The position numbers and the translations under genes are program-made. 64,000 bases of DNA from Sphingobacteriales bacterium. Its GTDB lineage: Bacteria > Bacteroidota > Bacteroidia > Chitinophagales > Chitinophagaceae. Below the pieces are notes generated by a model that saw nothing but the letters and a program-made list of their open reading frames with translations, had not been told where the DNA came from and ran no database searches. The stretch lies in the NCBI GenBank assembly GCA_003963365.1, contig RXJG01000005.1:136811-200810 (forward strand), written 5' to 3'. How positions within the stretch are numbered: position 1 is the first letter of the stretch; each line of letters opens with the position of its first letter. Shown piece after piece: positions 57,613-62,996 of this stretch.

Positions 57613-58230
57613 TTAGTTATCCTGTTTTATATTTTCTTTTTCTTTCTTCATATTCAGCAACTTTACCCCTTTTGTATTAAGAATACTATGCAAAAAGAGC
57701 ATATTTGTTTTTTCAATGATCTTGTGTATATCTGCCTGGGCGATATCACTTCCCAATGCACTTTGAATTTGCCAGCAATAAAGCCACCCAACATTTGCTT
57801 TATCTATATCAGGCCTGAAAATTTCCTCTGCTATTCCACGTTGCAAGCAGCGTTCGATAAAAGGTATTATTGAATTATCCCTGAAAACACCCAACTGCAA
57901 ATAAGCATCGGGATAATATTTCTTCAGGCTCCTGACAAATGCCGGAGTTAATATCCCAAGGATGTTATTCAAATAGGAAGAAAAATTCTCTATCTCTATG
58001 ATTGCATTGGGAGAAATGTCCGGGCACAAAAAAAGATAATTGCTTGTCTTTGATATTATTTTATCCACTACCATGTTTACCAGCATCTCCTTGCTTTGAA
58101 AATGCTCATATAATGTTTTTTTTGAAATACCGGCATATGAAGCAATGTTGTCCATCGACACTGAGTGCAATCCATTCTGCCTGAAGAGTGCTGTAGCTTT
58201 TTCAATTATATCGTTCGTCTTGTCCTTCAT
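57613..58230 (-). CDS. TetR/AcrR-family transcriptional regulator
   Basis: A 205-residue regulator from the ATG at 58228-58230 (MKDKTNDIIEKATALF); another ATG two codons upstream is possible. The DNA-binding part is SMDNIASYAGISKKTLYEHF, followed by a ligand domain with an amphipathic dimerisation region. Its upstream region contains the 28-bp element shared with doxX, at a position suited to activation. The regulated genes may include the DUF1269-HdeD genes downstream, inferred only from orientation. Confidence 0.92.
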   Translation of the reverse strand: MKDKTNDIIEKATALFRQNGLHSVSMDNIASYAGISKKTLYEHFQSKEMLVNMVVDKIISKTSNYLFLCPDISPNAIIEIENFSSYLNNILGILTPAFVRSLKKYYPDAYLQLGVFRDNSIIPFIERCLQRGIAEEIFRPDIDKANVGWLYCWQIQSALGSDIAQADIHKIIEKTNMLFLHSILNTKGVKLLNMKKEKENIKQDN

Positions 58231-58287
58231 AATCATTTCATAACACAAAGGTGAAACGAATATGCTCCTGTAAGAAGGTTTGCAAAT

Positions 58288-58315
58288 CGGCAAGTTTGGT
58301 CAATTAGTCGGTTAA
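58288..58315 (-). repeat. 28-bp regulatory element upstream of tetR (copy 1)
   Basis: On the minus strand this begins TTAACCGACTAATTGA and ends AACTTGCCG. It is identical over 28 bases to copy 2 at 59715-59742. A common motif, CGTTTCA then CTTTG, follows 29 bases downstream of each copy with no gap in the alignment. The element ends 57 bases before the tetR start codon. Confidence 0.85.
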
Positions 58316-58359
58316 TAGAGACTGGGAAATCAATTCCCGGGTGAGTCCCGGAAATACTG

Positions 58360-59262
58360 CTATGTTTGACGATATTCTTTTGGCGACAGACCGGTATGTC
58401 TTTTAAAATATTTGCCAAAGAATGATTGATCGCTGAAGTGAAGTTCATCAGCTATTTCCGCAATGCTTAAGGTTGGATTATCTAAAAGTAATTTTGCTTC
58501 AAGCAAAACAAAATCATCAATTATTTCACCAGCTGTTTTACCGGTGATCTCTTTTACAGTTTCAGTAAGATATTTGGCAGTGATATTGAGCTGGTCTGCA
58601 TAAGCCTGTACATTGCGCTGTTCTTTGAATTGTTTTTGCACTAACTGTGTAAAATTCCTGACCAGGTTTTCTTTTCTTGTGATATGATGATGGAATGGTA
58701 CGGCATATTTCTTACTCAGGCCGTACACTTCATATAAATAAATATAGAAGGTATGGTACAGGAGTTCTTTTCCATAAGGATGCTCATTCATTGAAGAGAG
58801 TTTTTCGTTTAGTTGTTTGATGAGCAACTGAACAGTTCCGGCATCTTTTTTTTCAAGCTTCCAGTGTGGTGAAAACTGAGTGGAGAAATAATCCAGTAAT
58901 TCAACAGCATTCTTCGGCATCCCTATGGCAGTAAGAAAATTAATAGTAAAGTTGACGCCTGAAACAATTGTATCTTTTGAAACAATTTCAATTTTTTTTA
59001 TTGCAGCAGGTGCAATAATGAGAAGACTGTTTTCATTTGCTGCATATTCTTCCAGGTTTAATGTAAACGTAAGCTCACCTTTCACTATAAGAAAAACAGT
59101 TAAGAAATCGGAGCGGAAATGAAATTTAAAAAGATCGTTTTCGTAAAAAGGTTGATTGTATCGAACAGAAAACCCCGGCACACTGGTGTTGGTATTAAAA
59201 TCCGGACCAGACAAAAAATCTGAATGCTTATAAGTAAATGTTTTGCTGGTTTTGCGTGGCAT
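58360..59262 (-). CDS. AraC-family transcriptional regulator
   Basis: A 300-residue regulator. The N-terminal sensing domain is cupin-like (FYENDLFKFHFRSDFLTVFL). The C-terminal double helix-turn-helix covers about residues 200-298 and ends SIAEIADELHFSDQSFFGKY then FKRHTGLSPKEYRQ, the classical AraC signature. No close operon partner is evident, although doxX lies just upstream. Its binding site may be the 28-bp element found before tetR and doxX; this is inference. Confidence 0.93.
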   Translation of the reverse strand: MPRKTSKTFTYKHSDFLSGPDFNTNTSVPGFSVRYNQPFYENDLFKFHFRSDFLTVFLIVKGELTFTLNLEEYAANENSLLIIAPAAIKKIEIVSKDTIVSGVNFTINFLTAIGMPKNAVELLDYFSTQFSPHWKLEKKDAGTVQLLIKQLNEKLSSMNEHPYGKELLYHTFYIYLYEVYGLSKKYAVPFHHHITRKENLVRNFTQLVQKQFKEQRNVQAYADQLNITAKYLTETVKEITGKTAGEIIDDFVLLEAKLLLDNPTLSIAEIADELHFSDQSFFGKYFKRHTGLSPKEYRQT

Positions 59263-59310
59263 ATCCGAAAGTTATTCAAATTATACCATGCTGCAAACGG
59301 CCTGAGCAAC

Positions 59311-59652
59311 TTAACCTGGAAGAGTGCCAAACTTTGAGAGTTGAAGCCCCAGCAATACCAGTAATAGAATAATGGTGACAATTGGGAGGATATAATGCGA
59401 GGGCTTCTCTTTTAATTTGATCAACGTAAACAAAGCGCCACCCATTACAACAACCAGGCCGATTGTTGCCAACATATCATATTTAGTAAACAGCGCAACA
59501 GCCAGAATTAATTCTGCAAAACCTGTGGCATACATTACTCCTGTTGTGTAACCCGCTTGTTCAAAAACCGGTTTGGTTTTGCCTGTCATTTTTACAAAAA
59601 CAGCTAAACCAAATATTACTGCCAATATAGCTTTGATGATAATTGTTTCCAT
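59311..59652 (-). CDS. DoxX-family small membrane protein
   Basis: A 113-residue protein with four hydrophobic helices and the DoxX-like pattern ILAVIFGLAVFVKMTGK, GYTTGVMYATGFAELILAVA and MGGALFTLIKLKEKP. DoxX-like proteins of this small class (DoxX_2) are common in Bacteroidota and often lie near redox or stress regulators. No function is established. The promoter region contains copy 2 of the 28-bp element 62 bases upstream of the start codon. Confidence 0.87.
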   Translation of the reverse strand: METIIIKAILAVIFGLAVFVKMTGKTKPVFEQAGYTTGVMYATGFAELILAVALFTKYDMLATIGLVVVMGGALFTLIKLKEKPSHYILPIVTIILLLVLLGLQLSKFGTLPG

Positions 59653-59714
59653 TTCTTGTATTTATTGTAATACAAAGATGAAACGGTAAAAGAGATAGAG
59701 AAAGGTTGCTACTT

Positions 59715-59742
59715 CGGCAAGTTTGGTCAATTAGTCGGTTAA
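59715..59742 (-). repeat. 28-bp regulatory element upstream of doxX (copy 2)
   Basis: Identical to copy 1 at 58288-58315. Each copy is followed at the same spacing by CGTTTCA-CTTTG, a -7-like motif differing from TAnnTTTG in the first base. No TTG-type -33 box is present at normal distance, so the element may take its place as an activator site. Confidence 0.85.
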
Positions 59743-61663: not shown

Positions 61664-62587
61664 CTACAAATTCAAATGAAGTTGCCGGTACTGTACAGGA
61701 GAGTTGCCGGTATGTCTTTTAAAAAAGCGGAAAAAGTGTGAGGAGGACTGAAAGCCCAGTTCATACGCAACTTCTTTTACTGAGAGCGTTGTATTTGCAA
61801 GCAATGATTTAGCTTCTGTTATTAATTTCAGATCAATCGTTGCTTTTGCCGGTTGCAACAGGTGTCGTTTGCTAAGTGCATTCAGCCGGTTAGGGTGCAA
61901 ATGAAGTTTATCCGCATAGAATGATACAGCATGTTGCTCTTTATAAAATCGTTGAATCAGGTTGATATATTCAATTACCGGAAGCGGCAGTAAACTTGTA
62001 GCAGTCTTTTCGCCTTTTTTGAAAAATCTTTCACAAACGATCAGTAATTCAAGGATCTTCAGTGTTATCATTTCATTTTTATTCAGCCGTTCATGATGTT
62101 TTTCATCAAGTATAGCTTCAAATATCTTATCAAGGTTTTTTCCCTGCCGGGCACCCGTATAAACGTAAGGCATCAGCTCTGAACGGAACAGGTTTAAGTG
62201 TTTGAGATGTTGGCTGGGAAATGTTTCACTAAGAAAAAAGTTAAGGTTGGCGATCAAAAAATATCCGCGGGTGTCGCTACTATGTTTGGCCGAATTGATA
62301 GTTTGACCGGGAATAAATATAAGCGTCCTGTCAGTTACCTGAACTTTAACGTTGCCAATAGTTATTTCACCCTTCCCCCTGGTAAAGAAGGCAATAATAA
62401 ATTGTGATTGCCGGTGTGGGGGAATACTGAATTGTAAATGAGGTAATGTATCTTCTACCCTGACTAAAAAGAAGTTTAATCGCTTAACCAGTTTCGCATC
62501 AAGATCAACAATATTTTTATTCCTGCGATATTGTTGGAATGCTTTTTTATAGTCGTCCAATATGGTTCTTTCCTCTGCAGTCAGCAT
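61664..62587 (-). CDS. AraC-family transcriptional regulator
   Basis: A 307-residue regulator from the ATG at 62585-62587 (MLTAEERTILDDYKKAF); a start five codons upstream is open. The N-terminal cupin-like domain carries PHLQFSIPPHRQSQFIIAFF. The C-terminal helix-turn-helix pair spans about residues 210-305 and ends SVKEVAYELGFQSSSHFFRF then FKRHTGNSPVQYRQ. It is a separate paralogue from the AraC protein at 58360. Target genes are unknown. Confidence 0.92.
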   Translation of the reverse strand: MLTAEERTILDDYKKAFQQYRRNKNIVDLDAKLVKRLNFFLVRVEDTLPHLQFSIPPHRQSQFIIAFFTRGKGEITIGNVKVQVTDRTLIFIPGQTINSAKHSSDTRGYFLIANLNFFLSETFPSQHLKHLNLFRSELMPYVYTGARQGKNLDKIFEAILDEKHHERLNKNEMITLKILELLIVCERFFKKGEKTATSLLPLPVIEYINLIQRFYKEQHAVSFYADKLHLHPNRLNALSKRHLLQPAKATIDLKLITEAKSLLANTTLSVKEVAYELGFQSSSHFFRFFKRHTGNSPVQYRQLHLNL

Positions 62588-62996
62588 GTTGATAAGGTAC
62601 AAATAAAAAGAATATTCGAGCTGAACTTTTTGAATGATTTAAGAAGCATTTTCAGAAAAAAAGAGTGATAAGCGGGTATTTCTGTCACTTATTGCCTCTA
62701 AGCGACACACCTGTGGTCCCGGTATAAATCGAAACTGTTTCTAAATTTAAGTCCCGCAACCAGCAAAGTAGCCCGAACAAGAATCGAACTTGTATCTAGA
62801 GTTTAGGAAACTCCTATTCTATCCATTGAACTATCGGGCCACTTTGCCTGCAGGATATTCTATCCCCATCCAACTGCCCCGTGCCGGGCGGGTATTGAAT
62901 TACGGGGCCAATGGGCGGCAAAAATAACAGTTTCTGTCAAATCCTTTTCTAACTATCTGCACTATTAATTTTATCTTCCCGTATTAATTATTCATT
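62588..62996. other. Intergenic region containing tRNA-Arg
   Basis: The gap between the AraC gene and the VOC gene holds only the tRNA gene at 62769-62840. The AraC side contains a weak TTTATTTG -7-like match on the minus strand. Nothing else is recognised. Confidence 0.6.
62769..62840 (-). tRNA. tRNA-Arg (anticodon CCU)
   Basis: The minus strand folds into a complete cloverleaf: acceptor GGCCCGA with TCGGGCT (one G-U pair), D arm GTTC/GAAT, anticodon stem GGAGT/ACTCT with loop TTCCTAA (anticodon CCT), variable AGAT, and T arm ACAAG/CTTGT with loop TTCGATT. The discriminator is A, and CCA is not encoded. It reads AGG arginine codons. Confidence 0.93.

Follow-up and report, generated by a model that had tools for sequence, protein, structure and literature searches.

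A predicted tandem operator of an AraC/XylS-family regulator precedes doxX-araC and tetR, and its targets appear to have been switched from an RND efflux pump

Among the activators of RND pumps, MarA, SoxS and RamA act with acrAB and MtrA with mtrCDE. MarA and SoxS bind as monomers to one asymmetric marbox and have no N-terminal effector domain. Autoregulation is known for RhaR/RhaS, and certain members of the AraC family, AraC included, both activate and repress. Promoters of Bacteroidota have the consensus -33 TTG and -7 TAnnTTTG, and the XylS repeats at the Pm promoter of Pseudomonas putida are spaced 21 bp. At Pm, two tandem direct repeats, each composed of a 4-bp box A, six nucleotides and box B, adjoin the core promoter, and activation is of the dimer type, RNA polymerase being adjacent to the proximal site (PMC5481539). 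The AraC/XylS activator-operator pair proposed here is of this known kind, and its target set appears from sequence comparison to have been rewired.

The window (the whole stretch of DNA that was analysed, 64,000 nucleotides) contains the 28-mer TTAACCGACTAATTGACCAAACTTGCCG exactly twice, on the minus strand in both cases (58288-58315 and 59715-59742), and each copy is followed at the same distance by CGTTTCA(C/T)CTTTGT, just as the first-pass annotation had reported. Allowing up to three mismatches, no third copy was found in the window (shuffles expect 0) or elsewhere in the 4.04-Mb genome, and the element was absent from the other genomes among the 195 of the same family that were searched. 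The likeness of the two copies continues past the 28-mer, which makes up two thirds of a candidate operator of about 40 bp, and 34 of the 40 bp are identical. The genes and predicted elements are as follows.

59701..59740, minus strand: candidate operator 1, before doxX-araC, 40 bp
59722-59740, minus strand: operator 1 half-site A, AACCGACTAATTGACCAAA, boxes CCGA-N6-GACC
59701-59719, minus strand: operator 1 half-site B, TGCCGAAGTAGCAACCTTT, boxes CCGA-N6-AACC
59673..59680, minus strand: predicted doxX promoter -7 box, CATCTTTG, TTTG 64 nt from operator start
59311..59652, minus strand: doxX, DoxX_2 family, 113 aa (Pfam PF13564, E=5.5e-7), first gene behind operator 1
58360..59262, minus strand: araC, AraC-family regulator, 300 aa (Pfam HTH_18, E=5.3e-20)
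58274..58313, minus strand: candidate operator 2, before tetR, 40 bp
58295-58313, minus strand: operator 2 half-site A, AACCGACTAATTGACCAAA
58274-58292, minus strand: operator 2 half-site B, TGCCGATTTGCAAACCTTC
58246..58253, minus strand: predicted tetR promoter -7 box, CACCTTTG, TTTG 64 nt from operator start
57613..58236, minus strand: tetR, TetR_N family (Pfam PF00440, E=3e-15), gene behind operator 2

The operator consists of two direct-repeat half-sites of 19 bp, CCGA-N6-(G/A)ACC, at an offset of 21 bp. Direct-repeat identity at this offset was 0.54, compared with 0.26 in shuffled sites, and no palindrome in the operator scored above 0.39 (best 0.38). The first-pass annotation had described a conserved upstream motif in the form of a 28-mer with two GACYAA halves eight bases apart; the conserved motif stands, but the unit is the 40-bp tandem repeat. 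The weak inverted match that it had pointed out, TTAACC-N10-CCAAACTT, does occur on the plus strand (59311-59334). It lacks a second half-site, however, and the operator model returned no score for it at E<=10, so it is not supported as a site. Neither window promoter has a TTG at normal -33 distance, where AACCTT is found instead, and both -7 boxes lack the first consensus T (form xAxCTTTG). Counted from the first A of AACCGAC (operator start) to the start of TTTG, the spacing is 64 nt at both promoters. Just 9-16 nt separate the -7 TTTG from the start codon of tetR downstream of it (58236 or 58230; region 58230-58249), so the tetR mRNA leader would be extremely short.

Like Pm, the window operator is composed of tandem box-N6-box repeats that are placed at a fixed distance from the core promoter and overlap the -35/-33 region. 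It differs from Pm in its boxes, which are CCGA/RACC here and TGCA/GGTA there (PMC5481539), and in the Bacteroidota-type -7 box of the promoter.

We collected orthologs of AraC from the genomes of the family and from public genomes. Across the class, in Chitinophaga, Dyadobacter, Arcicella, Flectobacillus and Mucilaginibacter among others, orthologs with 43-56% identity bear a related operator that adjoins araC at an equal distance to TTTG. The resulting set comprised 33 sites in 23 loci, excluding the window, and its almost gapless alignment yielded the consensus AACCGACtTTttGACCAattTTnCCGAtttatnAACCTTT, followed after ~22 nt by aaCTTTGc. TTTG began at 64 nt in 28 of these 33 sites and at 63 nt in the other 5 (30/35 and 5/35 when the window sites are included); a few orthologous sites had TTTA or TTCG instead. 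Two orthologs with 44-47% identity (L070 and L072) had weak or partial sites only. The proposal that the element substitutes for the -33 box was supported by this comparison across genomes, in which it keeps a fixed distance to the Bacteroidota -7 box.

A sequence-only model (R1) was built from the 33 orthologous sites, with the window held out. Searched with R1, the whole genome returned two matches, both in the window, namely operator 2 (tetR; E 1.9e-10) and operator 1 (doxX; E 5e-9), and the next best match had an E of 0.089. Within the window alone, the values were 3e-12 and 7.9e-11, respectively. Own-genome scans combined pattern and model searches; allowing up to three mismatches over the 16 core positions gave 14 matches versus 22 in the reversed control, so that matches beyond the two window sites are attributable to chance. 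R1 was also run on 394 family, 395 class and 395 phylum genomes, in partly overlapping sets, and the operator was rare across all three. Held-out sites were counted at E<=2e-4 outside the training set and outside this genome, which left 12 (G283, G295, G218, G348, G316, G778, G458, G667, G504, G730, G910 and G704). An AraC homolog was located within ~1.5 kb of 11 of them, all except G704, and most of these homologs were less closely related (31-46% identity; 55% in G316). The G704 site (L182; contig 5, 293895-293960) is a good operator match (E 2.7e-7) before a lipoprotein-like gene, and no homolog of the window AraC was detectable within ~10 kb of it.

These results bear on a rival reading in which the 28-mer would have no function and would stem from a dispersed repeat or from recent accidental duplication. 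The identity of the copies at 28 of 28 bases would fit such an origin; but the genome holds just two copies, both at promoters, and the same site with fixed spacing recurs in many other genera. We therefore rejected the dispersed repeat and give a chance origin virtually no weight. Because the paired window copies are more alike than the paired copies in Chitinophaga, a recent copying event is suggested, which makes the two sites less independent of each other.

The protein encoded between the two copies had been named as the natural candidate binder, and the operator indeed travels with its orthologs across genomes. Its C-terminus is an AraC-type HTH (HTH_18, E=5.3e-20; DNA-binding domain of E. 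coli AraC, 2k9s, E=4e-11). Its N-terminal domain matched the regulatory domain of RhaR both by sequence profile (9e-4) and by fold, with a target TM of 0.75-0.79 to 5u93 in a Foldseek search; the mean pLDDT of the AlphaFold model was 86.6. By sequence and fold, the protein thus belongs to the full-length AraC/XylS subgroup, with a double HTH and an N-terminal domain of the effector/dimerisation type. Because this domain resembles that of RhaR, it likely binds an effector. Probable autoregulation is a further feature shared with RhaR/RhaS, from which the system differs in its operator sequence and in neighbouring genes that are unrelated to sugar use.

TetR would be the other candidate: the operator could belong to the TetR behind copy 2, which would then repress itself and doxX. 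In addition to the window, Pseudoflavitalea (L053) has a tetR behind the site, and F. pectinovorum (L075) and Sphingobacterium olei (L072) encode TetR homologs close to araC. Nearly all operator loci, however, lack a TetR homolog and have AraC, the site repeats directly at 21 bp and is not a palindrome, and its position is upstream of the -7/-33 core, which it does not cover. We rejected TetR as the binder and regard its ownership of the operator as very improbable. Because TetR is missing from most loci and the site is not palindromic, AraC (58360-59262), whose homologs adjoin the operator nearly always, is the likely binder of both operators.

We propose, with a probability of roughly 0.88, that the element serves as operator for the regulator of the AraC/XylS family at 58360-59262, whose subunits would occupy the tandem half-sites and bring about class II activation of doxX-araC and tetR. 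In this model, two AraC subunits would bind head to tail on the two 19-bp half-sites (CCGA-N6-RACC), which are offset by 21 bp. The downstream one of the two would stand in for the -33 box, so that RNA polymerase would be recruited by AraC at the overlapping -33 position to the -7 box (xAxCTTTG) at a fixed distance. The boxes are arranged as in XylS/Pm, which implies activation of class II with overlap of -33, and by analogy we infer binding and activation by AraC rather than repression. A mainly repressing AraC, or one that activates only with its effector and represses otherwise, would be in keeping with the dual action of some family members, but has little chance of being correct, since at every promoter examined the downstream half-site stands where a -33 box is lacking, as expected of promoters needing help, and the geometry is that of activation at Pm (PMC5481539).

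Operator 1 would drive doxX-araC and operator 2 would drive tetR. doxX and araC stand in one row behind operator 1, 48 bp apart, and are probably co-transcribed as one operon. Because they share this row, the previously suggested regulon of araC, tetR and doxX holds, and AraC probably activates its own operon. The kinase that had been tentatively added to this regulon does not belong to it: its gene is upstream of the element, and the whole-genome model scan gave no site before it. A second AraC-family gene (61664-62602) lies just upstream of the kinase, and no operator-model site was found near it.

In most orthologous loci, the operator is located behind araC and before an MFP-RND efflux operon, a linkage that is shared with MarA/SoxS/RamA and MtrA and that, in many genera, connects this subfamily of AraC proteins with RND efflux pumps. 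The window differs from the MarA/SoxS systems in its tandem site, in the RhaR-like N-terminal domain of AraC, and in the genome's lack of a pump ortholog: the best RND match in this genome had 28% identity, compared with 71-78% among most site-bearing loci. In the literature searched, which did not extend to subscription journals, we found no description of the operator or of these pumps being controlled by AraC in Chitinophaga or Flavobacterium, nor do the relevant passages of PMC10197871 and PMC7881675 contain one.

Chitinophaga has a second operator before araC itself. The window keeps this layout of site, araC, site and target, but doxX precedes araC, and tetR is the second target. Because the cognate pump is absent, the circuit now stands before doxX-araC and tetR, and the target set appears from these sequences to have been rewired from the RND pump to doxX and tetR. 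Because most relatives carry the pump, we infer that it was lost here rather than gained elsewhere. A weaker site (E 0.003) that is flanked by an AraC homolog (37%) and a DoxX_2 gene in another genome (G160) hints at independent support for the link between AraC and doxX, and in one further locus (L150) the gene behind the operator encodes an outer-membrane barrel.

The analysis provides a defined predicted operator, a testable class of activator-dependent promoters for Bacteroidota, and an apparently clear case of regulon rewiring, in which the same regulator and operator persist, the pump is absent and other genes stand behind the sites. At even odds, we would extend this to a widespread, undescribed Bacteroidota AraC subfamily whose XylS-like tandem operator serves as a portable switch: regulator and operator would stay fixed while targets are swapped (RND pump, doxX, tetR, outer-membrane barrel, 3-hydroxyacyl-CoA dehydrogenase), and the operator would here have been copied before a second regulator gene, giving a two-tier AraC-to-TetR circuit.

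Two other arrangements were observed. In two genomes of the family (L151:1637-3065 and L153:629-2065), araC is separated by the operator from a 3-hydroxyacyl-CoA dehydrogenase gene, which was not expected as a target. In Chitinophaga ginsengisegetis, a gene for an LpxR-family outer-membrane protein is preceded by a third operator, a weaker one (L117:3813-3881).
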